Source: Sipunculus nudus (taxonomy: Eukaryota > Annelida > Sipuncula > Golfingiida > Sipunculidae). From it: 64,000 nt of DNA. The stretch is taken from assembly GCA_026874595.1 (NCBI GenBank), contig CM049319.1:16085601-16149600 (forward strand). The letters run 5' to 3'. The notes under the pieces were generated by a model. The model did no database searches. It worked only from the letters and a program-made list of their open reading frames with translations, and had not been told where the DNA came from. Shown one piece after another: positions 19,401 to 59,622 of the stretch (positions are counted from its first letter, which is position 1; each line of letters begins with the position of its first letter). A program made the translations under genes and the position numbers.

Positions 19401-22400
19401 TTGTCAGTTCCCGCAAAGTGGTGTGCCACCTGTATTTTTTATATTTTAACTAATATTTTTATATTTATTTTACTATAAAATGACAACAATCACCCTGTCT
19501 GTCTGTCTGTTTGTCTAGCTGTCTGTCTGTCCATGCGTCCATCCACACAAATTTGTTTCCAAATGATAACTCTAGGTATGATTGACATACAGATTTCAAA
19601 CTTGACTTACATATGCAAGAACCTATATGATTTTGGGGTCACAGGGTCAAAGGTCAAGGTCACAGGACTCACTTATTTAAAAAGATTTTGGCTGCATTTT
19701 AAGCCAAGCTTTTCATCCCAAACTTTCCATTTTGCACATTTAGCTGACTTGCCAGTATGGGGAGAGAATAAATAAATTTTGGATCACAAGGTCAAAGGTC
19801 AAGGTCAGAGGGGCCATCTGTTTCCAGATGATAACTCCAGTTTAGTTTGACATCTTGGTTTCAAACTTAACTTATATATGACTCACAATAAAGTCAGAAC
19901 TGTGTCGTTTTCGGGTCCAATGGTCAAAGGTCATGGTCACAGGACTCATTTCTTTAAAAAGAATGCATATGCATTTGAAGCCAAACTTTTCATCGCAAAC
20001 CTTCCATCTTCACGATATTTTTAACCTGCGAATAGGGGAAGATTCTGGTCGATTTTGGGGTCATGAGGTCAAAGTTCAAGGTCATAGTACCCACTTATTT
20101 AGAAAGATTGTGGATGCATTTTAAGCCAAACTTTTCATCCCAACCCTTCCATCTTGCACATATAGCTGAACTGCCAATAGGGGAAGAACTTGATTGATTT
20201 GGGTGTCACAAGGTCAAAGGTCATGTTCACAGGGGCCCATCTGTCCACATTTTTGTTTCTGTATGATAACTCCAGTTTGGATTGAAATATTGGTTTCAAT
20301 TTTGACTTATATATGACCCACCAATAATGTAAGATATGACCCGCCAATAATGTAAGAACCCTTTTGATTTTAGGGTCATAAGTCCAAAGGTCAAGATCAC
20401 AGGACCCACTTCTTTACAAAGATTGTTGATGTATTTTAAGCCAAATTTTATGTCTTAAACCTTCTATCTTCCAGATGTTGCTCACCTGCCAATAGTGGAA
20501 GTAACTTATGGATTTTGGGGTCACAAGGTCAAGGTCATGGGGGCAATCAATCCACATATTAGTTTCCAGATGATAACACCAGTTTGGTTTGAAATATTGG
20601 TTTCAAAATTGACTTATATATGGCCCACCACTAAAGTAAGAACTGTTGATTCTGGGGTCATGAGATCAAAGGTCAAGGTCACAGGACCCACTACTTTAGA
20701 AAGATTGTGGATACACTTTAAGCCAAACTTTTCATCTCAATCCTTCCATCATCAACATGTGGTGCACCTGCCAATAGGGGAAGTTTCCTTTTGATTTTGG
20801 GGTCACAAGGTCAAATGTTAAGGCCACAGGGCCCGTCCATTCACAAATTAGTTTATGGATGATAACTCCAGTTTGGGTAGACAGGTTGGCTTCAAACTGA
20901 TCACATGACCAATATTTTGGAAAACCTCATAAACATATATCCTTTTATAAAAATGCAGCTGAGCGTCGAGACCCATGGGTCCCTAGTTGTCTTCTCCAGG
21001 AGGATTCGTGTTCATCCCTGTTCTTGTGTGTTTGTATGTTTTCTCACAACATAACTCATACAATCATGAACAGAATCTCATGAAATTTTCAGGAATGGGC
21101 CAATTGAGAATCAGTTGTTGTGGGTCTGGCACATATACATATAATCTGGATTCAGTAACATCATGAAGGAATATTCACAAATGTGCAATCAGTTATGCAA
21201 GAATGAACCTGGGAATATGGGCCAATAAAGTGAATGCCAGCATGGTTATTTTAATGTTTTGGTAAATTTACTTGGTCTGCTTCATCTTGGTCCCCATGCT
21301 GGACCATTACAGAAATAGGATTTGTAAATTTCCATGCTAAACTTGGTGTGTGTCTGGATAAGATGTAATACTGTGTATATGCACGAGTTATGTTGTGAAC
21401 AAACACACACACAAACACACACACAGATGGAGATTAACACATTCCCTCCTGGCACAGGCATTTAACAGAATATCTTATTAGAATTTAAAACCTTTCAGAT
21501 AAAGCTATCAGGAAGCTACAATATACAGATTAAATGGTAAAACATATTTACAGAAAACATGACTCTGTGTTTTCACAGCAAAAGGAGCACCAGGTTGTGT
21601 CAGTGTTGATGAAACAGCAGGACAACTCTACACAGAGGGAAAATGAGTTGAAAGAGGCGCGATATCAACAGGAACGAGCTGAAATCCAGCGAGAACAGGA
21701 CCAGCAGACTGGCTCCTCAGGACCATCCAGGGTAAGTGAGACCTTCCAATGATAATCTGGTACCAAGGACCTGCCCAGTCTCCTACAGAGGTCGCCACTG
21801 CTTTACTCTGTCAGCAATTGTAGTCTATGAATGTTAAGGCCTGAAATGTTGGCAAGAATTCAAGCATAAAGTGGAGTTTTCTAACTGCAAATTTTGTAAT
21901 TGTACATGAATGAGATGATTATCTGAATGATCTACATTCTTATGAGTCAATGTTATTATAAGGATACATGACAAATTGATGCTTTTATCATATATACTAA
22001 AATTTGTATGGGCTGTAACTATTCACTGGTGCATTAGTGCATCACTAAACAATGGCAAATATTTTATCAGTATCATCAGGTGTACCTGTATTGACATGTT
22101 GAGCTGTTTACAATACATGACCATCAAACAGAAAGTCTGTCATTTAACTAGAGACATCAGGCATTTAATAATGGTCTGTGGCCCATCGCATGTAAGACAA
22201 AACATCATTGGTCAGAAATCAGTTAATCAGCATATGATTTGCTGTTTGTTGTAAAATCAAATAAATATGAGGAACTATTTCATTATTTGTTAAGCATGGT
22301 GGCAATGGCATGGGGAATGATCAGCTTCAAGAAGAAAGAGGCAGTGAAATCTTAACTCTGATATATTAGTGTATCGTATCATGTATCAAACAGTTAGTTG

Positions 22401-25400: not shown

Positions 25401-28400
25401 ACGCAATAGCAGTCGAAACATATATTAATGTAGGGTATATATATTTATAAGACTTTGAATATCATCCATCAACCCAGTGACCCAAATACTCCTTGAATCG
25501 TTTGTTTAAGATTAGCTTAGGTACACAAGTATATTTGGTATGGCAGGAATATTTATAGCACCAGTACACAGGCTACAAACAGAATAATCCCTGAAGTTTA
25601 CTAATTATGTGACTGGATCATTTTTACCCATCGCACATGCAACCACTGTTGCTTGTGTGTTAAATACTTCAAATTAACTTAAAACTAAACTGTAAATTGA
25701 CCATTTTCATTCTAGTATAAACATTGCCCACTTACCTTTGTAATTCATATTGAAGGATCCACAAAGGAATTATCTAGTATGGACAATATCTTCAGAGTTA
25801 CTTTGTTTCTCTGATTTAACACAAGAAGGCACTTAGGAGCAAAATTGGTATTACCATAAATAACATTCAAGACATTTATGATTAACCTCATTAATATGCA
25901 GTGTCAGGACTGATGGGTTCCAAGTTACATTATATACTGACTTCCATTCAGGTGCTAATGCTTCATTGTTGTGCCTAAATATTTCCCCACAGGTAGAAAA
26001 ACCCACTGGTAGAAAAACCCAGGTAGAAAAACAGATAGAAAAACAGGTAGAAAAGCAAGATTGAATCAATGAATCTCCACCTTGATACATGTTAAGTTTT
26101 CAAATTGATCATCCCTGGAAGAGACCAGAGATTACAGGTACTTCCTCTCAATGTGCTTTTATTTTTTTTTCTACAGAATGGCTATATTTGAGGAAGAAGA
26201 AGCTGAAGAGAACATTTATATGGACATTGATGATGTCAACCCGAACAGAATGGTTAGTGTCCAGATGGCTGAGGTGTAAAAAATTAAAAATAAAAAGATT
26301 TAGTGAAAGAGACAAAGAAAAGATTTAGAAGAACAATAAATGAAAAAATTAAGATTTAGGATAAGAAGACAAGTCATAGGTGAACTCTCATTGTTACAGT
26401 ACAGTCATTGAAGTCAGCTAAAAACTGCAGGATGAAGATTCTGTTAATTTTCTAAATCCAATAGACAGCTCTTTTATAAGTACAGAAAGTTCAGAGCTAA
26501 GGTCCTTCATGTGGTCCTGCAAAGTCTTTCATTGAGGTTTTCTTGTGAAGATGTCTGGTTATATCTTACTACATATATGTTTGTAATGCTGTATGTATTT
26601 TAATTTTCAGTTTACTAATGAAGAAATAGCAGGACGACATCTCCAAGTTGTCCACCTGAAAAAGGTAATAAAGATTGTGCTTATACATCCATAGATAGGC
26701 ATATGTATTAATAGAATCACTCCAAGAAATTATATTGGGTACAGTGCCGAGGGGCATATGTATATGTACTGCATTCATACATCATACACATATATGTAAT
26801 AACACCATTAGTCAGATGTGGCTGATGTTTTTAGCTCAGCTGACTTCAATTCATCTGAGCTATAGTCGTGGTCCTTTGTCTGGTGTCAGTCTTGCCATCT
26901 GGCCGTCCGTTTACAGGGCACCTTTTGAAACCATTGAACCTATGAATCTGAAATTTTGCATACAGTTAGATGTTCCCAGAATCTCCCACCATACCGAAAA
27001 TTGGGTCACTAGGACTTGGTTCCTTTGAGATATTAAGGAAAAACCTCCATTTTCCATTAAAAACCCATTGTTACACTTCAAGACTGCCTAATATCAAAAC
27101 CACTTGGTCTGTTTTTGATCATATTTAGTGTGCCTATTCTTCCAAATTTTTTTCCATGAATATACCAAAAAATAGGTCAGTATTGCGTAATTTGTTGAAG
27201 TAACGGGCCTTTTTATAATCAAGATTCAATTGTATTACCAAAATTAGATCTGAAATTTGCCAATCTTAGCTCAGTTGACTGCAAGTCATCTGAGCTATAG
27301 CAATCACCCTTTGTCCATCTGTTTGTCCGTCTGTCTGTTAACCAGGCACAAATCTTAACTGCTGGTCCCGGAATCTTCTTACTTGACATCCAGAGAGGTC
27401 CATGAAAAATCTCCTTGGAAACTAAAAATTAAGTCTCTGTTACCCATATTATTCAAGCTATGGGGCTCCGAAGTACCCCTCAGAATAATGGAAAATTTGA
27501 TGCATAAGCACAAGTATCTAGATTATAGATTTTTTCCTCTATTCTTGAGACCTTTAAAGATGTAGTCTTCTGTTAACAGGGTACAGATCGTAATCACTGG
27601 ACCTCGAATCTTCAAACTTGACATCAAGGGAGGTCCATGAAAAGTCTCGAAAGAAACCAGACCCTAGGTCTCTGTTACACATATCCTCGAAGCTATGGGG
27701 CTCAGAATTATCAGCAAAAATTAAGAATTTTATACAAAAGCTCACTTATCTGAACAACTAATTCATTGATCACCATCATTCTTTGCATGCATATTGATCA
27801 TGGAGTTTTTCATAATTTTCTGCAGACTTAAGGCTCCAGCTGGATTTTTGAATGAACTTGAGCTTATATGCATGAACTATGATGCCACCTACATTATCTT
27901 AATATGTTGCCTGTGCAAGGACATATTGTCAACATGTCAGTTGGCTGAGCATCATGACCCATTGGTCACTTGTTTAAGTTATTAGCATGAACATAAATTC
28001 AGTACCTTAAATTTTTTCCAACTTTGTACATGGCACTTTTATTTCTGTATGCACTGTTAATTTTCACTGCATGTTTACATATTGATTTAATCTTTAAAAA
28101 TCTGAAATTTCAAAGGAATTGATTGAAAAGGGTAGCTTTTATTCAAGTTTTTAGACACCATGGTCAAGTGTTGTTTACATCAGGCCACTGGCCAGTACAG
28201 TGAGTTATGCAGCCCTTATCTGTGTCATGTAACCCACTCCAGGTAAGTGGCTTGGCTCAGCTTGGGTTATCTTCCGCTCAGCCCTGCAAGAGTAAAAACT
28301 TTGCATTCTTTTCACAAGGTGTGAAATTGAATATTAATTTCAGTATTATATTAAAGCTGAGATACTAATTTGGATAATTATATTGTTTCTCCCTCATCCA

Positions 28401-31400: not shown

Positions 31401-34400
31401 GGTCACTGTGACCTATACTCACAGCAGCACAGCAAAAATATTTGTTTTCAGCTTTTAAAGAATCAGATCTTCTGATTGTTTAAAGTTGTTAAACAAAAAT
31501 TCTCTATTAAACCTTAAAATTGAATTAATGTATCTCATGTAAACATAAACACCTGTCAGCATGTAAAATTTTAATGAAGTTATTAGTAAATGCAAAATGT
31601 CACTTACAGAATTGATACTGATATTATACTACAATGAACCCATTTTGAGTTACAAATTCTGGTTTCTCAATTAGTTCTTTAAAAATTATGACTGACAGTC
31701 ATGAATATTAAGCCAATGTGTCAACACTAGTCGGCTTAAAGGCATGACCCATTGGGCACAAAGAGGTCTGTTATGTCAATACAAAGTAAGAAAATGTTTA
31801 GTTCATAGTATCATGTGTGTTTGCACAGTGTTCATTCTGTATGTCTAATTTTCTGTTTAAAATGCAGTTTTTGCTTGACATGTATGTAGATACACCATGT
31901 ACCCTTTTTATTGCATTTTGGTATATTACTTCACCTTATACTTTTTAGATAGTTGGTGATTAGATATTTATATACAAGTAATGTTGTTGATCTTTTTCAG
32001 CCAACAATAAAACTGGTCCTTGCAGAAGCTCTGCCACCTGGGCAGGAACTCATGTAAGTCTGAGGATTGATCATCATCTCTTCACATTTCCATCACACTA
32101 ATTTAGATATTACACCTTTTTGTCTCTGGCTTAAGAAAACAAAACTACTTTTCACACACTTCACACGTTCATTGTATTATTCCATTTCATGCACATTTAC
32201 AACTGTATTGATTCGTCAAGTTAAGAAAAATATGGCTATTTCACACACTTTACATTTTTATGCCCCCGCCACAAAGTGGCCTGGGCATATAGTTTTACCC
32301 ATGTCCGTCATTCCGTCCTTCCGTCATTCCGTCATTCTGAAATCAAACAGTTGTACAGTTTTTTTCGCAATACCTGCAGATATTGGCCTGATTTTTGGTG
32401 TGTGGGCAGATAATGACCAGTTACAGATCGAGTTCGCATTTCGTCCCAGTTGACCTACTTTTGAATGTTTTACACCTCCTTAACTTAGAAAATTTCATGA
32501 AAAATATAAATTTTCATGACAAATACACATGTACAGACTTTTTTTCGCAATGCCTGCAGATATTGGCCTGATTTTTGGTGTGTTGGCAGATAGAGACCAA
32601 TTAGAGATCAGGTTCGCATTTCGTCCCGGTTGACCCACTTTTGACCGTTTTACTGCTCCTGAACATCAAAAATTTCATGAAAAATATTAACTTTCATGAC
32701 AAATACACATGTACGGACTTTTTTTCGCAATGCCTGCATATATCGGCCTGATTTTTGGTGTGTGGGCAGATATTTACCAGTTACAGATGGAGTTCGCGTT
32801 TTGTCCCAGTTGACCTATTTTGACCGTTTTTACGGCTCCTGAACATAGAAAATTTCATGAAAAATATTAACTTTCATGACAAATACACATGTACAGACTT
32901 TTTTTTGCAATCCCTGCAGATATTGGCCTGATTTTTGTTGTGTGGGCAGATATTTACCAGTTACAGATCGAGTTCGCGTTTCGTCCCAGTTGACCTACTT
33001 TTGACCGTTTTACAGCTCCTGAACATAGAAAATTTCATGAAAAATATAAATTTTCATGACAAATACACATGTACAGACTTTTTTTCACAATACCTGCAGA
33101 TATTGGCCTGAGTTTTGGTGTGTGGGCAGATAATGACCAGTTACAGATTGAGTTCATGTTTTGTCCCAGTTGACCTACTTTTGACCGTTTGAGGGTTTTC
33201 TAACATAGAAAATTTCATAAAAAGGTGCACATGTACGGACTTTTTTTCGCAGTGCCTGCAGATATTGGCCTGATTTTTGGTGTGTGGGCAGAAAATGACC
33301 AGTTACAGATGGAGTTCTTGTTTTGTCCCAGTTGACCTACTTTTGACCATTTAACTGCTCCTGAACATAGAAAGTTTCGTGAAAAATAGAAATTTTCATA
33401 ACAAATGCATATGTACGGACTTTTTTTCCTCAATGCCTGCAGATACCACCCTGATTTTTTATGTGTGGGCAGATAATGACAGTTACAGATCGGGTTCGCG
33501 TTTTGTCCCGGTTGACCTACTTTTGATTGTTTTACAGCTCCTAAACGTAGAAAATTTCATGAAAGTCAGAAATTTTTATGGAAAATGCACATGCATGGAC
33601 TGTTTTACACAATGCCTGCAGATACTGGCCTGATTTTTGGTGTGTTTCTTGATAATGACCCGTTACAGATCGAGTTTGCATTTTGCCCTTGTTCACAAAC
33701 TTTTGACCATACGACACCTCCTGAACTGAAAAATTTTTTCAAAATTTAACAAATGTTTCTAATTTGCCCCAGGCGGGGGCATTTGTGTCGTTCCGACACA
33801 TCTAGTGTTATTTCCATTTTATCAGTTCATATTATAAATAATTTGTCTCCATCTGTACATATATTTTTATGATCATTTAATTTTCCATATAACCATTGGT
33901 GCATACATTTTTCACAAACCAGAATCACCTTCCAAAAATGAAATATGTTGATGATTTTCACAATCTCTACTTTGACAAATATTCTGATACAGGCATGTGA
34001 GATTTGACCAGGAAAGTAAGTGTCAGTAATTATAAAAAAAAATCACATCTCATATTTATTAGGGCTGGCTGTCAAGAGGAATATAGATCCATAATCATGG
34101 AAGGGCAATCAATTATAAGTAAAATTATATGGCTAGAAATGTCAAAATTAAATACTGATTACTGGTTTGGCTATCAATTATTGAGAGAGAGAATGTGATG
34201 AAGTCAACATATATAAGTGTTTCAGTGAAGTGATTTTGCCTTGAAATATTTTTTTCTGACTCCATTACTTTATTCTTATCAAATTATCAATAAACTTATC
34301 AGTCTGTCACAGCTATAGATAACAGTACCTTTTCTTGTCAGAGCCATTGAAAATCGCTTAATTGGTCCTCTTATATCAGTCAGTATATGCCAGCCCTAAT

Positions 34401-39308: not shown

Positions 39309-42300
39309 AACAAGTGACCCATGGGTCATGACGCTCAGCTGACTGGGAAGAGATTAGCTAAAGGAAATTTTATCATCAGAATGGTAGTATATACCCATTC
39401 AACTGAAGCATCCAACAGATTAACCAACAGGCCAAGATTTAGTCTGTATTTATATATCTCAAAAATAGAGAAAAAATGTGTAAACTTTAAAAACTAGAAT
39501 ACGGGTAGCCGACAAGTGACTACGTGTATCCGCCAAAATCAGAGTGGAACGGTTGAAGTGAGGCATGGATTGAGTGGCAAGGGGAAATAGAGTAAGGTAT
39601 GCTGCATATTAGCATGGATGTCTGCAGCCTAAATGTGAATGTAGGTTGTGCCACCTACCACAAATCCAGAAAGCTGTCCAAGTTGTATACATATGCAAAA
39701 TTTTAGGCAGAAAAGTCAAACCACTACATGTATATGAGTGATTTTAGCCGACGGCAGACAAACAGACAGACGCTGTGCAAAAATGGTTGCAGGTGGCCCC
39801 TCCAGTTTTGTGTAAAATAAAGACCTATGTGAGATCTATACACATGGAAAATTTTGGCCCAATCTTTCAATTCCCGAGATATGAGCTCGGATGTCTGCAG
39901 CATAAACTAGAATGTAGGTGGCGCCACCTGTCATTAAATCAAGAAAGCTATCCAGGATGTATAAAACTGCAAAATTTTAGGCAGATATGTCAAACCACTG
40001 CCGAGATATGAGTGACATTATCCCACAGCAGAAAACAGACAGACGCTGTGCAAAAATGGTTGCAGGTGGCGCCACCAGTTTTGCGTATGATACAGAGCTA
40101 TGTGATATCTATACACATGCAAAATTTTGGCCCAATCGGTCAAACGGTTCCTGAGATATGAGCTTGGATGTGATCAGCGTGAACGTGAATGTAGGTGGCG
40201 CCATCTGTCATAAAATCAAGAAAGCTATCCTGGATGTATATGCATGCCGAATTTCAGGTGAATTAGTCAATTCACTGCAGAGATATGTGTGATTTTAACC
40301 CAAGGCAGATGAACAGATGGACACTGTGCAAACATGGTTACAGGTGGCGCCACCATTTTTGTGTATGTTATAAAGCAATCCAAGGGCTACATTTGTATAA
40401 ATTTTATTTCCTGATTGGTCAAACGGTTCCCGAGATATGAGGGTTTATGTGTGGATCAGATGCACAAATGGACGCTGGATAGAGGGGAAAGGTCAGAGGT
40501 CAACACAAATTGGTTAGGCACTAGTTCACATGTGACTAGATAATTAGTGTAAGTTTCGGAAAAATCCGTCCATTTTTCTCAGAGGAGCTCTCTGGAAACA
40601 AACATGGCGGCGGCGGAGGAACCCGGTCAAAAACATAGTGTCTGCAAAACTTCGTTTTGGAGGATACAAAAATACAGGTGGCTCCACCAGTCTGCAGAAA
40701 CTAATAAAAACACTTAATGGTCAATATCCATGCAAAGAATCATGGTGATCTCTGCATTAGTTAATTGTTCAGATACTTCAGCTTTTGTATCAAATTGTCC
40801 ATTATTCTGAGGGATACTTCAGAGTCCTATAGCTTGAAGGATATGGGTAACAGAGACCTAGTTTCCACAGGCACTCTTCATGGGCCTCCTTGTATGACAA
40901 GAATGAAGTTTCTAGGTCCAGTTGTTGCAATTTGTACCCTGTTGACAGATAACCACATCTTTAAAGGTCTCAAAAAGAGAGAAAAAAAAATTCGTAAAAA
41001 TTTGAAAAAAATAGAGGTGGCGCACCCAGTCTGCAGAAACTGATGGAACAGCTCATGATCCATATGTATGCCGAAAATCATGACCATCAGTGTTGTAGTT
41101 AATGAGATATTGAAGATTTTGTATTAAATTTTTTACTACTCTGGGGGGTACTTTGGGGCCCCATAGCTCTAAGGTTGGGTAACAAAGACCTAATTTCTGG
41201 TTTCCATGGAGACTTTTCATAGGTCTCTCAGTGTTTCGAGAATGAAGATTCTAGGTCCAGTTGTTACGATTTGTGCCACGCTAACAGATGACAGCATCCT
41301 TAAAGGTCTCAAAAATAGAGGAAAAAATCGTAAAAAAAAACCCCGAACAAATACAGGTTGTGCCACCAGTCTGCAAGAACTGATGAAACACCTCTTGATC
41401 AATATGTATGCCAAAAATCATGACCATCAGTGATGTAGTTAATGAGATATTGAAGTTTTTGTATGAAATTTTTGACTACTCTGGGGGGTACTTTGGGGCC
41501 CCAAATCTCGATGGATATGGGTAACAGAGACCTAATTTTTGGTTTCCATGGAGACTTTCCATAGGTCTCTCAGTGTGTCAAGAATGAAGATTCTAGGTCC
41601 AGTCGTTACGATTTGTGCCACGCTAACAGATGACAGCATCCTTAAAGGTCTCAAAAATAGAGGAAAAAAACCGTGAAAAATAGAATAATACAGGTGGCGC
41701 CACCAGTCTGCAGGAACTGATGGAACATCTCATAAACAATATGTATGCCAAAAATCATGACCATCAGTGATGTAGTTATTGAGATATTGAAGTTTTTGTA
41801 TGAAATTTTTGACTTTTCTGGGGGGTACTTTGGGGCCCCATAGCTGCAAGGATATGGGTAACAGAGACCTAATTTCTGGTTTCCAAGGATATTTTTCATG
41901 GACCTCTCAACGTGTCAAGAATTAAGATTCTAGGTCCAGTCTTTACGATTTGTGCCTTGTTAACAGATGACAGCATCCTTAAAGGTCTCAAAAATAGAGA
42001 AAAAAATTCGTAAAAAATCGAAAAATACAGGTGGCGCCACCAGTCTGCAGAAACTGATGGAACAGCTCATGATCCATATGTATGCCAAAAATCATGACCA
42101 TCAGTCAGGTAGTTAATGAGATATTGAAGTTTTTTGTATGAAATTTTTTACTTTTCTGGGGGGTACTTTGGGGCCCCATAGCTGGAAGGATATGGGTAAC
42201 AGAGACCTAATTTCTGATTTCCAAGGAGATTTTTCATTGACCTCTCAGAATGTAAAGTTACAAGATTCTAAGTCCAGCGGTTACGATTTGTGCCAGGTTA

Positions 42301-50437: not shown

Positions 50438-52352
50438 ACAAGGGACCCATGGGTCATGATGCTCAGCTGACTGGGAAGAGATTCGCCAAAGGAAATTTTA
50501 TCATCTGAATGGTAGTATATACCCATTCAACTGAAGCATCAAACAGATTAACCAACAGGCCAAGATTGTGACTGTATTTATATTTCTCAAAAATAGAGAA
50601 AAATATTCATAAAAAAACCCGAACAAATACAGGTGGTGCCACCAGTCTGCAGAAACTGATAAAACACCCCTTGATCAGGATCCATACAAACAATTATAGT
50701 GATCTCTGCATTAGTTGTTCAGATACTTCAGCTTTTTTATCAAATTGTCCATTATTCTGAGGGATACTTTGGAGTCCTATAGCTTGATGGATATGGGTAA
50801 CAGAGACCTAATTTCAGGTTTCCATGGAGACTTTTCGTGGGTCTCCCAGTGTGTCAAGAATGAAGATTCTAGGTACATTTGCTATGATTAATGCCCTGTA
50901 AACAGATGTTCATATCTTTAAAGGTCTCAAAAATAGAGAAAAATATTTGTAAAAAAACCCGAACAAATACAGGTGGTGCCACCAGTCTGCAGAAACTGAT
51001 GAAACACTCCATGATCAATATCCATACAAACAATTATGGTGATCTCTGCATTAGTTGTTCAGATACTTCAGCTTTTGTATCAAATTGTCCATTATTCTGA
51101 GGGATACTTCGGAGTCCTATAGCTTGATGGATATGGGTAACAGAGACCTAATTTCAGGTTTCCACGGAGACCTTTCATGGGTCTCCCAGTGTGTCAAGAA
51201 TGAAGATTCTAGGTCCAGTTGTTATGATTTGTGCCCTGTAAACAGATGTTCATATCTTTAAAGGTCTCAAAAATAGACAAAGTAATTCGTAAAAAAACCC
51301 GAACAAATATGGTTGGTGCCACCAGTCTGCAGAAACTGATTAAACACTCCATGATCAATATCCATACAAACAATTATGGTGATCTCTGCATTAGTTGTTC
51401 AGATACTTTAGCTTTTGTATCAATTTTTCCATTATTCTGAGCTGTACTTTGGAGTGCCATAGCTCAAAGGATATGGGTAACAGAGACCTAATATCCTATT
51501 TCCATGAAGACTTTTCATTAGTCTCCCTGTGTATCAAGAATGAAGATTCCAGGTCCAGTTGTTACGATTTGTACCCTGTTGACAGATAACTACATCCTTT
51601 AAGGTCTCAAAAATAGAGAGAAAAAAAAAATGTAAAAATTTGAAAAAATACAGGTGGCACCACCAGTCTGCAGGAACTGATGGAACACCTCTTGATCAAT
51701 ATGTATGCCAAAAATCATGACCATCAGTGTTGTAGTTATTGTGATGTTGCTGTTTGTTTTTATAAAATTTTCATTATTCTGGGGGGTAATTGGGAGCCCC
51801 ACAGCTCAAAGGATATGGGTAACAGAGACCTTATTTCAGGTTTCCATGGAGACTTTTCATAGGTCTCTCACTATGTGAGGAATGAAGATTCTAGGTCCAG
51901 TCTTTACAATTTGTGCCCTGTCGACAGATGTTCACATTTTAAAAGGTCTCAAAAATTGGGAAAACAATTCATAAAAAATCGAAAAATACAGGTGGTGCCA
52001 CCAGTCTGCAGAAACTGATGAAACATCTCATGGTCAATATGTATGCAAAAAATAATGACCATCAGTGATGTATTTAATGAGATATTGAAGTTATTGTATG
52101 AAATTTTTGACTATTCTGGGGGGTACTTTGGGGCCCCATAGCTCGAAGGATATGGGTAACAGAGACCTAATTTCTGGTTTCCGAGGAGATTTTTCATGGA
52201 CCTCTCAGAATGTAAAGTTACAAGATTCTAGGTCCAGCGGTTACGATTTGTGCCAGGTTAACGGACAGACGGACGGACAGATGGACGGACAGACAGATGA
52301 CAGACAAAGAGTGATCGCTATAGCTAAGATGACTTACAGTCAGCTTAGCTAA
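50438..52352 (-). mobile_element. Second large copy of hairpin-ended family T, 1.9 kb
   Basis: Inverse orientation. Left border ACAAGGGACCCATGGGTC then GCTCAGCTGAC; its first 160 bp match 39309-39480 closely. Then five units of about 340 bp ('ccagtctgcagaaactgat' near 50642, 50982, 51322, 51661 and 52000). Right border: (GGACAGAC)n at 52260-52306 and the hairpin 52321-52351 (TAGCTAAGATGACTT / CAGTCAGCTTAGCTA). It lacks the 277-bp array of the 39-kb copy. Repeated open frames are shadows of the unit. Confidence 0.75.
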
Positions 52353-52980: not shown

Positions 52981-52984
52981 AAAA

Positions 52985-53192
52985 CCCCCCCATTCCCTCC
53001 CTGTGAATGGTGGTTTTGTTAGTAAACTGTTGTGAGCTTTTCTGTATTAATGAGAGAATTTTCTCTGTTAAAGTTTATACGCCAGAGTAAGCCAACCGAA
53101 AATTTTCCCTTATTGAGCCTATTATCGCCCATCCCGCCTCGTTCCCATGTATCTAGGTCACACTTCCGTTACCCATAATCACATTTTCGAAG
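52985..53192 (-). repeat. DIRS right inverted terminal repeat (3' end of element)
   Basis: The outer tip CCCCCCCATTCCCTCCCTG... is unique to this end. From 'ctgtattaatgagagaattt' to 'taatcacattttc' it equals, inverted, the other terminal repeat at 57690-57840, with only a few substitutions (for example GAGCC/GGGCC and CCTCG/CCTCA). Confidence 0.88.
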
Positions 53193-53228
53193 GCGTAAGG
53201 AAGAGGACTGGGAGGGAGCGATGTTTGT

Positions 53229-53340
53229 AATACAGAAAAGCTCACAACAGTTTACTAACAAAACCACCATTCACAGGGAGGGAATGGGGGGGTTTTATTA
53301 CGTAAACATAATTGTGAGCTGTTTCTGTATTAATGAGAAA
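53229..53340. repeat. DIRS internal complementary region (circle-junction copy)
   Basis: The first part (53229-53292) is the reverse complement of the right-end tip 52985-53044. The second part (53293-53340) is the reverse complement of the left-end tip 57818-57866. They join at GGGGGGG|TTTT, exactly as the two ends of a circularised element would meet. Confidence 0.88.
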
Positions 53341-53369
53341 AAAACAGACATGCCTTGGGGAGGGAGCAC

Positions 53370-54184
53370 CTACCTGTAACGCTGGAACGAGGAATCACAG
53401 TGCTGTGAAGGAGCAGCGGACGACGTCGGTGGCGGAACCGACGGAGAGGAAGAAGATGGCCTGGAAAATTGTAGGACCTCACCCGACGCAGACACAGGGC
53501 CCATGGAGGAGAGGCCTGAAGCCTGGAGCGGAACAACAGTCAGATAGAAGCGTGAGAACGGAGATGGGGATATCCAGTATCCCATCTGGACCAACTGATT
53601 AGGTGAGATCCTGGAGAAATGGGCCAAGGAAGTCGAAATAGCTCGAATGTCATGGGCCTTGAAGGGAAGTTGGTCTAATGTGGAATGAGAAGCTGATTCA
53701 TATGCGGCGACGATAGTAGCTTGAGTCACGCACTAATGGTGAAAGGGCTAATCACCGAATTGGAAGATGTGACTTTTGTAGAAATAAACAACTTCTTGCG
53801 CCCCCCCCCCCCCCCCCCCCCCGTAAAGAAGGAGGAGCGTGGGGATAATAACGCAACACACGAACCGGGCAATTCGGAGCCCCATAACGGTACTGACCGT
53901 TAGGGAGGGCCGGAACGTGCCAAGCAGACCTGGGTCATCGAAACTGTGATATTTCCTATAAAAAACCGGCGGAAAATGGAGAGTGGCCGACGAACTGTCG
54001 GCCGCAATTTGCGTGAATTACGAATCAGCCACGAGGGCATGAAGCTCAGAACGGAGACCGGACGGCGGCCTGTCGGGGAGACGGTCGCGAGGGTGACGTA
54101 GACGCGTCTCGGAAGGCACGAGAGCGGGGGGGAACGCAAAATCGTACAGATCGAATTCCGGCCGCCCCAGGCGAGCGAAAACAC
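53370..54184 (-). pseudogene. DIRS tyrosine recombinase, frameshifted
   Basis: The C-terminal catalytic part is on 53729-53370: FKAHDIRAISTSLAHFSRI gives the H-x-x-R motif (His at 53654-53652), then GYW and FSRFYL with the tyrosine at 53546-53544. The first catalytic arginine is probably in GLRSELHALVADS at 54053-54018, in another frame. A 20+-base poly-C/poly-G run near 53801-53823 and frame changes separate the two. In an intact element this integrase substitute inserts the circle without a target duplication. The tail to 53370 is low complexity. The N-terminal half appears deleted. Confidence 0.7.
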
Positions 54185-54926
54185 TCCGAATAAGGAGTGG
54201 AAGGAGTGGTGGGGAAGGAAGAGACGCCGGGTGACGGGAAAGGGCGTCCGCTAGGACGGTCGACACGCCCAGAAGATGGGATGCACGAACTGAAGCCCGG
54301 AGAGAGAGGCATAGATCGAACAAAAGGTAAGTCTCCTGCATGAGCGAGGGAGACTGAGTACCGCCCTGCTTGTAGATATAGGCCACAACCGTGGTATGGT
54401 CGGTCCGGATGAGAATGTGACGTCCGATCAAGCGGGGAGACCAGTGGGAGATCGCGCGACGGACGGCACGCAGTTCGAGGAGATTGATATGGAGCAGACG
54501 TTCCGACAAGGACCATATCCCGGAAGCGCGAAGATCGGCGAGATGGGCCCCCCAACCGAGGAGAGACGCATCGGTATAGACGGTGCAATCGACACCCCTG
54601 GAAAAAGGAACGCCGCGCAGGAGACAGGAAAGGTCCATCCAGGGACGAAGGGACCGCCAGGTGCGCCGAAACAGGAGGATCGTAGGACGAACCGAGGTGA
54701 ACCGGAGAAGGCCGTGACGGCGCAAGATAGACTGAATCGGACGCAGGCACAGGCGGCCGAACGGGATGAAAGACGCGGCCCGGTTGAGAGCACCGTGGAG
54801 AGAAGCCGCAGGGCGCGAGTCTACACGGCGCCTCGGGAGAAAGGAACGAATCAGGCGGCAGAGCCGGAGAGTAAAAGCGCGCGGGAGCGACGCTGTGCGG
54901 GACGCCAAAACGAGCGTGACACCCAA
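54018..54926 (-). pseudogene. DIRS reverse transcriptase C-terminus plus RNase H
   Basis: 302-codon open frame. Residues 1-30 continue the reverse transcriptase thumb side. The RNase H domain spans about residues 110-235: VYTDASLLGWGAHL (D119), HINLLELRAV (E151), LIRTDHTTVVAYIYKQGG (D176) and STVLADALSR (D227). All four catalytic acidic residues are in place. The KQGGT-S and ADALSR patterns are typical of DIRS/Ngaro elements. Downstream residues run straight into the recombinase arginine region, much closer than in intact elements, so an internal deletion is likely. Confidence 0.82.
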
Positions 54927-55892
54927 AAATTGGAGGGACTGGGTGGGAGTGAGAAGAGATTACGCCGCAATGACCAGGAAGCCGAGGTTCCGAAGTAAGA
55001 TGAGAACCTGGGAGCGATGCGATGCGATGCGGCCGCATGGACAAGCCAGCGTCCATATAAGGGAGCACAGAAATGCCAGGTGAACGGAGAAAACACGGGA
55101 CTGCGGGAACAAGTATGGTAAAATCCAGGGGGCCACGTGGATCCCGAACGGATGGACCCGGAATGGAAACGTGAATGAGGCATCCGTAAGGTCTAGTTTG
55201 GAACGCCCAAACCATCCGCCGAACAATGCGGAGCACAGCATGGATAATGAACATCCGAAACGGGGGCGGACGGATGAACGAAAGGAGGCGCTACAGGTCT
55301 ATGATCGGGCGCCAACGGTCGTGCGGTTTGGGAACAAGAAAAGGCGAGAGTGAAACCCAACGGAGGATGGGAAACCTCGAAATTGCCTGTTTGTCGAACA
55401 TAGATGGAATGGCCTCCGCCAAGCGAGGCGTTATGCCGGAGCGGGCTAAACGTAAGACGGAACCCGAACTGTAGGGCGCCGAGAATGAACCGCTGTGAGG
55501 TGAAACCCGCCCACGCGGGAAAACGGTCGCTGAGCCGAGAGCCGATCGGAGCTAGAGAGGCAATTCTTGGTCGAACCTCGGATGGAGGATCGACCACGAA
55601 AAGGCGGAGAACGGCTGGAACGTCCGGAAGGACGTGAAGAGAGAGCAGACGCGCGACGCGGCTGAGCGGAAGCCGCAACCTGCTCCGAATCGGGAGGATC
55701 GTGGAAGGAAGGCCGAGGCGCAAGAGAGGTCGAGCGGAAGCGGGCCAGACGATCCGAGCGCGCCAAGGTGTGGGCAAAGAGAGGCCGGAATGGCCGCCAA
55801 ACAGCAGGGAACCGGGAAAGGCGGAGAATAAAGCTCGGTCAACTCCGCCTGAGAAGCTTCGGCTGTAAGTGCTTAAATGACAGAATGCATTT
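54927..55892 (-). pseudogene. DIRS reverse transcriptase, frameshifted and internally deleted
   Basis: Motif A LDLTDA (55196-55179) is followed directly by FTFPFRVHPFGIHVAP, which resembles motif B (FRVLPFG.S.AP); the roughly 20 residues normally between them are missing. In a neighbouring frame GISVLPYMDAGLS (Y at 55059) stands where the Y-x-D-D catalytic motif belongs, with the second Asp replaced by Ala. At least three frames must be combined to follow the domain. The call rests on motif order and the adjacent RNase H. Confidence 0.7.
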
Positions 55893-56939
55893 TTACAACC
55901 GGGAGCCAACGACCTGAACAAACTCAGCGCCAGTATGGGCAGAAGCCTGGCAGAAGGCGTGGAGAGTGAGCGTGTCCGGAGAAACGGCGAGCAAGCTAGT
56001 GACAGCCTGCAAGTTGTTAACCATACCGGCCGCACGCCAGCCGAGCCCCTCCAGATCCGACAGGTGACGATCGGAAAACTGGACAGAGGATGGTAATAAA
56101 GACTTACCGTCCGCAAACGGCTGAGCCAGGCCGGACACGAGGCGCAGCGGAGCAGACTGAACATCTGGGAGCTCAGGAGAAGGGAGCAAGCGAACGAACA
56201 GGTAGCCTGGAACCGAGGGGAATTCCCGAGGGTACCGGGGGACCCAGGTGTAACCGAACCCGGCGGAAGCGGGGCCCCAGTAGAGCGAGAACCCGAGACC
56301 ACCGCTTGGGGCCCACGGAAGAGATCCCCCGTGTGGTCTGTAATTCCAGACACACGGCGGGCGCTGCGGAGGGCGATGGAAGGGGCCAGGATTCAATGAA
56401 GAACCGGCCGCCGACGCCGAGGAAGTCCGAGGTTGTACCAACGGAACTTCGGACCACTAGGGTTAGCCTCCTGTGTGGAGGTAGCCCCTAGGTCCATAAG
56501 CGCAGATTTGCGCGTACGCCAAGCCTGGCGGTGCAGCGCGATTGCCGACCACTGGTCTGGTGCCAGGGTGGGATCGGCTGACTGAGCTGATATGCGCGGA
56601 CGCCAATCCTGGCGGCGCAGCGCGATCGCCGACCACTGGTCTGATGCCGGGGCGGGATCGGCTGACCCAGCAGGCGGGGACCCTGGAGAACCCCGTGTAA
56701 GGGGAGCCAGAGAGACCCGCTGAGCCGGAGCCACCGGAGGCTGGAAACAGGAAGCCGGGGAACGAGCAGCAGCAGGAACCATCCGGGAAGGCACAGGAAC
56801 CGGAGTTGCAGGCCGCACAGCAGATTGGCACTGAAAGAAGAGCCGGCCGGCCGGTCAGTAACGACGGCAGACGGAGGAACCGGAGGCGAGGCCTGCAGGC
56901 CCGAATGGAGGCAGGAGGGACCGACTCACTTACCTGCAC
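55893..56939 (-). pseudogene. DIRS gag-like region
   Basis: Position (5' of the reverse transcriptase on the coding strand) and Pro/Arg/Ser-rich composition suggest the gag of the element. The clearest stretch is 56441-55893, with LSDLEGLGWRAAGMVNNLQA near its end. No zinc knuckle was seen. Contains an internal 84-bp tandem duplication at 56513-56667. Confidence 0.5.
56513..56667. repeat. 84-bp tandem duplication inside the DIRS gag-like region
   Basis: 'ttgccgaccactggtctg' and 'gggatcggctgac' occur twice at 84-bp spacing with about 10% divergence. 84 is a multiple of three, so it adds 28 codons in frame. Confidence 0.85.
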
Positions 56940-57689
56940 ACCAGGAAGGTCCGGGCGATCCAGCGGGACGGCTCCAGCCGGCCACGGGGATAAGGAAGGA
57001 ATCCGGCGAGGAGCTGGGCGACGAGAACGGCCGGGGAGAAATTACCGGGGCGCCGGCGAGGGCGCCGGGCGGACTGAATCGGGTCTAGACAAATCGTCGA
57101 GATCCGCGTAAGTGATTAACAAGCCCTGGACAAAATATGTAATATGGAATAGGCAGATGTGCTGGCAGAACGGGAGGCCGCGGGAACGGGTGAAGAATGC
57201 CGGTTCCTTGAATGAGAATTCAACGATGTAACTGTCTAAACCACTGGAGAGGTGACAGGACCGGCGGGAACGGACGGTGAACGCAGCACGGCCGTGGTGC
57301 GGTCAACCAGGGTAGGCTCCCCCCCCCCACCCCCTCGGAGACAACCACGGGGCCAGACAATGGAATATAGGAGGGTGAACCCCCAAGTACCGGGGAATGA
57401 GCCCAAACCTGGAAGGGCCCACTGGTCAGACGTCCAAGTCTGGCAGGGAAAACAAGGATCAGCCGGAACACGGCAGGAGTCATTGTTGGAGCGGCAACGA
57501 AAACAAGTGGGGGGTGAGACCCAACCGGGATTAAGAAGACAAGAGCCACAATAAGTGGGGTTCTCAATGGCGGGCAAGGGAAAAAGAAGACAACTTACAG
57601 TTCAGTTGGCAAACTCATTAGTACAAACCCAACAGTGGACGAATCTCGCAGAGCGGGATCACACATCCATCAAGGCGTACGCCAGAAGA

Positions 57690-57866
57690 AAATGTGATTA
57701 TGGGTAACGGAAGTGTGACCTAGATACATGGGAATGAGGCGGGATGGGCGATAATAGGCCCAATAAGGGAAAATTTTCGGTTGGCTTACTCTGGCGTATA
57801 AACTTTAACAGAGAAAATTCTCTCATTAATACAGAAACAGCTCACAATTATGTTTACGTAATAAAA
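57690..57866 (-). repeat. DIRS left inverted terminal repeat (5' end of element)
   Basis: Inverted match to 53040-53192 over 'gaaaatgtgattatgggtaa' to 'ctctcattaatacag'. Its own tip is CAGCTCACAATTATGTTTAC followed by GTAATAAAA, then host sequence CATAAAATTAACG. Confidence 0.88.
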
Positions 57867-59622
57867 CATAAAATTAACGACTCTATGAAATACATCCATA
57901 AAAAACTGAATCCCTAGTAATTATTAGTTCATTGTAAATCAGAAATGCAAATATCTAGTTCCATGTGTAGTGACAAAATAAACCAAAGAACTAGTAACAT
58001 TGAGAAGACTCATAAAAATCAACTAAAAAGTTAGGGGCCTAAAAAGTACATGAATTTTAAACTGACACTACCTGTTGGACACAAGAGGAGGAGCAACTTT
58101 TATTTTTTTCTGAACCCCCCAGTTTCTATTTTCAGTAACAAAACAGAAGCTATTTTCCCTATTACTAAATAACTAGACAAGCAGTAATTGAGGTACCTGG
58201 GCATTATATATTTCTTTTAAATCATGTAATACTCTTGCAGACCAAGTAATACACACAATTTATTTCAACCATTAAAAATGTACACATTATCTCAATTACT
58301 GAGAAAGTTTATTACATAAATACATACACATGTGTACAACAGGTTGATAACACAATAAGCAAATGAGCATGGATTATGGATGGAAACTAAAATTGTTTGC
58401 CCCAATAAACAGTGGTTAGGTTAATGCATTATATAACATTTGAAAGAACGCTGAATTTTACCAGCATTCATATTTAAGCATGATGATCATCAAAGTAAGT
58501 TAACAGAGTATTCTTTATGTGCTGGATGTAAGTGTAATTTAATTCTTTTCTCATGTCTAAAAGCATGAATTTAAACAAAAAGAAATCAGCTGTGAAACTT
58601 CAAATGCAATAATAAAACACTTCATGTAAACTGTGTACAAACTGTTGTAGCTTAGTCACAATTTTAAGTAAACAGTAATGCACTATTTAGGACTAATATC
58701 AAAACCAGGAACTACAAAGCTCATTTTTTTATATTTGATTAAAGGCTTTCTTACTGAAGATTTCAAAAGCCTGAAATCTCTTGCTTTATTTGTCTTCCGA
58801 AAAATGGGAGGTGTTTAAGGCTTTTAAACTAATATTTTCCTGTTTCAACAACACATTTGTATATTTTTTTCTGGTTCTCCCTCACTTCTTTGTCACAAAA
58901 AAAAAACCAATGAATTCAACTAGTGTTGCCAAGCAATGAGTGCCAGACAGAGTAGAAAACAGGCATTTAAAGTTTTACATAACTCAATGACAAACAGTCT
59001 GTTTATTAATTATAGAAGATGACTCCGACAGATATGAGTGGACAAACATATCTTTTCTGGTCACAGCACAGGATTAAGCATGTAAATTCTGAGAATGTGA
59101 TGCATATATCCTGAATATATTCAGTCCAGTAAAAATATACCCCAGTATATGAAATATGGCATTCCATCACCTGTGGTACAGCTGGATTTTAATAGTATTT
59201 CCATCCATTGGTGGTTCGAAGTGCCAGCAGGTTTTATATCTGTTAAACGTAGGTTTACACCCATCAGCTGACTAAGTACCACTGCTTTTTAATGGTGTAC
59301 AGCTCAGGGGTCCATCTGTATGATGACATTAAATGGATCACCCAATATTCTGTTATTATACCAGTAATACAGAATTATACTATATATACACTTCCTCATA
59401 TACTGATGTCTAGTTCATACACAGGTGGGTTTAAAATTGTCAGCTCTGAAATTCCAATGCAAGAGAGCAAGAAAGTCATATTACATATAGTATGTCATGT
59501 CACGGTATAAACCTGTGTTCTGTTGGCCGTATGGCACTTTATTTTCACTCCACGCCAGTAAAAAATGGTACAGTGTTGGGTATGGTACATGGTTAAATCA
59601 AAAGTCCTCATAGATTCTGTGT
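57867..59622. other. Intergenic and SKP1 3' UTR
   Basis: AT-rich. No gene found. Several TTTATT (AATAAA on -) candidates could end the SKP1 message: 59539-59544 is nearest the stop, others are near 58306 and 58258. The true end cannot be chosen from sequence alone. Confidence 0.4.

Follow-up and report, generated by a model that had tools for sequence, protein, structure and literature searches.

Integration of a DNA circle by DIRS retrotransposons has so far been deduced from the structure of the elements, and the proposed mechanisms are still to be demonstrated experimentally (PMC5941688). PMC3266345 places recombination at an identical 3-bp sequence and finds a junction-complementary triplet in almost all elements; the origin of the two borders is not mentioned in the parts of that paper covered here. 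Here we analyse a DIRS1-like element of Sipunculus nudus that lies in a 64,000-nucleotide stretch of contig CM049319.1 (positions 16,085,601 to 16,149,600; this whole stretch is the window, and positions are numbered from its first letter). The element, at 52985–57866, has its coding strand on the minus strand and is a young copy. It is an ordinary DIRS element, and its asymmetric footprint is the part that deserves attention. With hundreds of young copies in the family and empty sites that can be read, this footprint becomes measurable: which border belongs to the element and which to the target, where the crossover falls, and which target letters are required.

The element resembles the DIRS1-like elements of the GTT...AAC class (GaDIRS1, SkoDIRS2 and TnDIRS1a; PMC3266345) in its inverted terminal repeats (ITRs), an internal complementary region (ICR) made of the complements of both tips, a terminal extension at one end, the 3-bp junction AAC, the lack of target duplication, an RNase H and recombinase region and a length near 5 kb. 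It differs from them in that empty sites here settle the origin of the borders for individual copies, the left core being the target's and the right core the element's. With inverted terminal repeats and an ICR, it lacks the split direct repeats of the Ngaro and PAT groups. Cryptons (PMC3212892) are likewise eukaryotic tyrosine-recombinase elements that have short matching ends and a proposed circle, but they are DNA transposons with 4–6-bp direct repeats and neither ITR nor ICR. The closest likeness in footprint is found in the bacterial SE and Tn554 elements, in which, after insertion, one end carries the circle's spacer and the opposite end the target's (PMC10214605, PMC9345347); these are DNA elements that have a 6-bp spacer, use no reverse transcription and lack ITR and ICR, and no homology is claimed. 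No mention of one-sided DIRS borders was found in the literature searched, with most subscription papers and the founding DIRS papers outside its scope.

Architecture of the element and its family

An earlier note on this sequence had described two ITRs with unequal tips and an internal region built from the complements of both tips, and self-complementarity bears this out. The conserved parts of the ITRs, at 53039–53188 (plus strand) and 57688–57837 (minus strand), form a 150-nt pair that is 99% complementary. The ICR (53228–53341, minus strand), which lies near the coding 3′ end, holds both tip complements: 53228–53296 complements the left tip and core at 52981–53049 over 69 nt at 100%, and 53292–53341 complements the right tip at 57818–57867 over 50 nt at 98%. 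The two meet at GGGGGGG-TTTT (53286–53296). AAAA stands at 52981–52984 and at 57863–57866, and its TTTT counterpart in the ICR is at 53293–53296. Since the C at 57867 belongs with the right AAAA, as AAAAC forms the right border in 57 of 59 copies, the element end is ambiguous by one base (52985–57866 or 52986–57867). The terminal extension is present at one end only. It is the left tip with its C7 tract, the 3′ end in the coding sense, at 52985–53012, and spans 27–28 nt up to and outside GTTTT at 53013–53017 (plus strand); its assignment follows tip complementarity and the DIRS extension lengths in Table 3 of PMC3266345.

The left 359 bases of the element recur at 98–100% identity in 40 scored places of 1,245 candidates in the 1.43 Gb genome, and patterns made from the tips, counting ends and ICRs together, gave 834 left and 871 right matches against 0 for a reversed control. 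The architecture of the window copy is therefore not a product of chance. The tips are constant between copies, as had been proposed, and ITRs, ICR, RNase H and sister copies together identify the element as of DIRS type.

Border letters, empty sites and crossover point

Both borders were read in 59 copies (50 tabulated first and nine added later), which were chosen for intact tips from the first matches listed on contigs C1–C4; the right core of one of them (L067) was taken from the list of right ends. That list holds 100 of 250 counted right ends, three of which are ICRs, leaving 97. The corresponding left list holds 100 of 322 counted rows, of which 26 were filtered as ICR-like, at least one of them wrongly, and the other 74 stand outside the main counts.

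The right border reads AAAAC in 57 of the 59 copies. The left border, by contrast, is AAAA in 18 copies, TAAA in 13, AAAT in 10, AGAA in 7, CAAA in 3 and GAAT in 2, with six other versions occurring once each. A left border other than AAAA is combined with a right AAAAC in 39 copies, the reverse combination in none, and both sides deviate in two (c8, TAAA/AAAGC; c15, AAAT/AAATC). Among the 97 listed right ends, 90 are AAAAC and two AAAAT, and AAATC, AAAGC, TGAAC, AGAAC and AAAAA occur once each. The right border is the element's own, because the ICR core of the same copy also reads AAAAC in 38 of 50 copies (nine read otherwise and three are unreadable). The earlier note had reported the same AAAA at both borders and in the ICR; this is correct for the window copy and does not extend to the family.

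A second subfamily with another right tip (CATCGATG...) shows the same one-sidedness: of eight copies with both ends, none has AAAA at the left border and seven have AAAAC at the right, and 33 of its 39 listed right ends are AAAAC. A pattern for its left tip proved too narrow (2 matches), so fetched stretches were used instead, 3 of 10 of which (L174, L175 and L179) had no left end by string search.

Empty sites could be read for nine copies. Four lie in the window as relatives without the element: AAAAC at 39963–39967 (plus strand; copy c10, L019/L020), GAATC at 26944–26948 (plus strand; c20, L039/L040), a diverged AAATC at 20051–20055 (minus strand; c17, L033/L034), with a second one at 20196–20200, and CAAAC at 33674–33678 (minus strand; n13, L128/L129) within a tandem array, whose other seven printed units read CCAAC, CGAAC or AGAAC. 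Three copies have their empty sites in tandem arrays of their own flank (c23, TAAAC; L062/L063, ATAAC; L073/L074, TAAAC). For the remaining two, joined flanks were spanned elsewhere in the genome. Those of L055/L056 found 40 spanning places at 94–96% identity, where 12 stretches in 8 loci were read, 11 as AAATC and one as AGATC; those of c24 found 40 spanning places at 96–97%, of which four were read, all as AGAAC. Two weaker candidates, c9 (with a 1-bp indel in the relative) and c12, were left uncounted.

At all nine sites the core is carried once, with no duplication or loss of target sequence, as the earlier note had expected. At the eight sites unlike AAAAC the target's letters are kept at the left border, with AAAAC at the right. 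The left core is thus the target's and the right core the element's. By analogy with these nine copies, the left AAAA of the window copy (52981–52984) is probably derived from the target as well and no family feature, AAAA being found there in 18 of 59 copies; joining the window copy's own flanks returned the two flanks and six weak partial matches, with no spanning match in the genome. The right core, AAAAC at 57863–57867, is the element's, its C being common to element and target.

These observations bear directly on the model of the earlier note, in which target and circle recombine symmetrically at an identical AAAA. That model fits the window copy and the 18 copies with a left AAAA, and under the published convention, by which the junction here is the 3-bp AAC at positions 3–5 of the core, 44 of the 59 left borders match. 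As a strict rule it is refuted by the eight empty sites that differ from AAAAC (GAATC, AAATC twice, TAAAC twice, ATAAC, CAAAC and AGAAC), an outcome that the earlier note had itself named as counter-evidence; 41 of 59 left borders are not AAAA, and the register common to all is A-W-C (W, A or T). We consider strict symmetry very improbable. A shared junction trinucleotide at both borders is not strictly defining for DIRS elements, since 10 of the 28 elements in Table 3 of PMC3266345 have unequal start and end.

The net crossover lies between positions 4 and 6 of AAAAC followed by W, because the letters at positions 1–4 of the left border and those from position 6 onward at the right border are the target's, and C at position 5, present in all nine empty sites, is common to both. 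The target shows letter preferences. Compared with the flanking background, 50 copies have A at −2 in 49, A or T at −1 in 49, A at −3 in 39 and A at −4 in 34; downstream, A or T occupies +6 in 47 and T occupies +12 in 39, with little preference past +14. The +6 figure is biased by 22 copies that were picked by a pattern excluding C at +6, and among the 28 others A or T is found in 25. One copy with a C6 tract (c13) is mis-anchored in this table and correctly placed in the 59-copy border count.

Position 4 is informative because it lies inside the published 3-bp junction, and the case for strand bias rests on it. It is not A in 15 of 59 left borders and in 2 of 59 right borders (Fisher p = 0.001); among the 97 listed right ends two have another letter than A there (p = 9e-06). 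Copies in which the two borders disagree split 14 to 1 (p = 0.001), the single one being c8. Further, all three empty sites that differ at position 4 (c20, c17 and L055/L056) have the target's letter at the left and the element's at the right. An argument that all 39 left–right differences prove strand bias was dropped, as differences at positions 1–2 need none.

Exchange of both strands by a tyrosine recombinase leaves a heteroduplex that can be resolved either way. The asymmetry at position 4 is not what random resolution of two exchanged strands gives; one-sided borders imply either a stagger of 0–1 bp or a single strand that determines both junctions. A conventional two-strand exchange would need biased correction of core mismatches or an unusually short stagger. 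A stagger of 0–1 bp at the shared C would yield the observed borders without any strand bias. Under conventional exchange, c8 could be a reverse product and c15 a corrected one. Tyrosine recombinases, however, typically have 6–8 bp between their binding arms (PMC3212892), and a biased correction would have to act in opposite senses at the two ends, towards the target's letters at one and towards the element's at the other. The 14-to-1 split at position 4 also speaks against it. We judge this explanation unlikely.

Proposed strand-biased joining of a circle

Border counts, position 4 and empty sites agree in placing the target's spacer at one end and the circle's spacer at the other, as in strand-biased integration. 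We consider it likely that the circular complementary DNA (cDNA) is joined to the target at one point by a strand-biased, recombinase-mediated exchange, which leaves target letters at the left and the element's AAAAC at the right. The substrate would be a circular cDNA with the junction CGTAAT-AAAA-CCCCCCC dictated by the ICR, which a tyrosine recombinase would join to a target carrying A and C at positions 3 and 5, W at position 4 and usually W at position 6. A single net crossover point between positions 4 and 6 would explain why the left border keeps the target's letters, the right border carries AAAAC and nothing is duplicated. In this scheme one strand would decide both junctions, in place of a random resolution of two exchanged strands.

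Several observations weigh against one-point, strand-biased joining. Nine of 50 copies have an ICR core other than AAAAC, yet eight of these nine carry AAAAC at the right border. Copy c8 (TAAA at the left, AAAGC at the right) could have arisen by the opposite resolution, and both borders of c15 read AAATC. TGAAC and AGAAC occur among the 97 listed right ends, in copies whose left end is decayed (L146) or was not found (L147). The letter following the core is A in copy L055/L056 and C in the best of its empty relatives. The differences at positions 1–2 call for no strand bias, because these positions lie outside the published junction AAC. Finally, support from Pfam for the recombinase is weak, with a match to PF00589 at E 0.022 in 1 of 11 family members.

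How a single strand might come to decide both junctions can be pictured in two ways. In the first, a double-stranded circle is the substrate, the recombinase exchanges one strand, and replication or repair completes the other, as proposed for SE and Tn554. The footprint of SEs is identical, the circle's spacer going to attR and the target's staying at attL (PMC10214605, PMC9345347), and this picture agrees with the border counts of the 59 copies and with the split at position 4. It leaves unexplained the one-sided extension and the correlation of the extension with junction identity in the published DIRS elements discussed below. We regard it as plausible, short of probable.

The second picture arises from folding. 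The 124-nt junction strand is predicted to form one long hairpin of −27.3 kcal/mol (z −8.35), with none of 200 shuffles as good, and its inner 55 nt fold with z −3.14 (2 of 200 shuffles as good). AAAAC lies in the predicted stem, paired with GTTTT at 53013–53017. The core pairing recurs in the second subfamily. Among 27 ICR loci, 16 sister ICRs contained the string searched for, 15 of them with a fully paired core. DIRS integration might then be a one-strand exchange from a single-stranded cDNA circle folded at its junction, in which the ITRs pair, AAAAC forms a duplex with GTTTT and the extension closes the hairpin; replication would then copy the exchanged strand, as in integron cassettes, and the target's core would stay at the extension-bearing end.

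Published elements offer some support for such a role of the extension. In the 10 elements of Table 3 with unequal start and end (PMC3266345), the junction equals the start in seven, all with the extension on the right as here; it equals the end in AcasDIRS1 alone, whose extension is on the left, and two are undecidable. The extension side thus tracks junction identity in the 7 + 1 decidable elements, given our own reading of "start" in that table as the coding 5′ end. The footprint of the present family, which points to strand-biased exchange, likewise offers a reason for a one-sided extension.

Other points count against a folded circle. The ITRs, a known feature, account for much of the pairing, which is no evidence that the fold is used, and a fold is also predicted for the opposite strand of the inner 55 nt (z −4.02). 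In the published model the circle is double-stranded (PMC5633606, which also reports circular DIRS-1 cDNA in a Dictyostelium discoideum laboratory strain lacking agnA). In bacterial SEs an identical footprint goes with a circle found to be double-stranded and nicked (PMC10214605), so the footprint is no proof of a single-stranded one. Covariation says little about the inner hairpin, because the second subfamily retains the letters of the inner stem and varies in the outer one formed by the ITRs. A folded single-stranded substrate is possible, not proven, on the strength of these fold predictions, and we put the folded circle forward tentatively, as somewhat unlikely. If it holds, one-strand exchange at a folded site would be common to DIRS elements and to integron cassettes with their folded single-stranded attC (PMC2727003), which belong to another host domain and another kind of element; DIRS recombination would then be the retrotransposon equivalent of that of integron cassettes or SE/Tn554. 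The footprint itself can be checked in further DIRS families, where each copy's two borders can be set against its ICR.

Coding content and variation among copies

The window copy retains a reading frame with an RNase H domain at 54018–54959 on the minus strand (PF17917, E 4.3e-07; E 1.4e-05 in a sister copy). On the same strand, tblastn with a frame of the sister copy L159 placed a frame-shifted remnant of the C-terminal part of the recombinase at 53485–54062, where the sister frame resembles integrases, and remnants of a long upstream frame, by position the gag and reverse transcriptase region, at 54478–57493, also in shifted frames; that upstream frame has no Pfam match. The same comparison indicates that about 228 codons of the recombinase region present in L159 are missing from the window copy at about 54060. 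With recombinase codons missing and frames shifted, we take the window copy as non-autonomous.

The sister recombinase frame matches phage integrases (phrog_1, E 4.5e-05; matched in 3 of 11 members). By this similarity the family has a tyrosine recombinase, as represented by the sister copy, and the window copy keeps remnants only. Neither a reverse transcriptase domain nor a methyltransferase-like domain had a Pfam match in the frames tested. A recombinase profile gave 0 matches against solved structures and 0 against NCBIfam, and a single recombinase sequence matched retroelement polyproteins only (E 0.24–0.97). A predicted recombinase structure was discarded for its low confidence (mean predicted local distance difference test score, pLDDT, 39.8), and no fold search was made with it.

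The ends of the family are far more alike than its interior. Between the window copy and L159–L164, the left 357–359 bases are 97.5–99.4% identical and the right ITR 96.5–99.4%, against 86.8–95.9% for the interior; in comparisons with L165, the left is 94–96% and the interior 76–80% identical. This contrast could reflect constraint on the ends or ends exchanged between lineages. Another locus, L170 (C15:20701500-20709500), has an RNase H 70% identical to that of the window copy; in the 8 kb fetched around it there was no match to the tips of the window family and no inverted repeat was found, which would fit other ends or lost ends.

The C-tract of the left tip has seven letters in 45 of 59 copies and 10–18 in nine. 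Expanded tracts in the ICR (c1, c3, n1, n10 and n11) have AAA, not AAAA, before the Cs, and left and ICR tracts within one copy mostly show no joint expansion.

Among the insertion sites, L056, L058 and L059 have nearly identical right flanks (AAAAC-AACAGT(G/A)CTTACAG), marking the same place in a high-copy repeat; in each of them the core is followed by A, and in the best empty relatives of L055/L056 by C. The element contains an 84-bp unit in two tandem copies that are 87% alike (56502–56669). Elsewhere in the window, tandem arrays lie at 32352–33685, 39616–40240 and 50585–52254, with periods of about 180, 273 and 340 bp; sister DIRS copies have inserted into arrays of the first two kinds.

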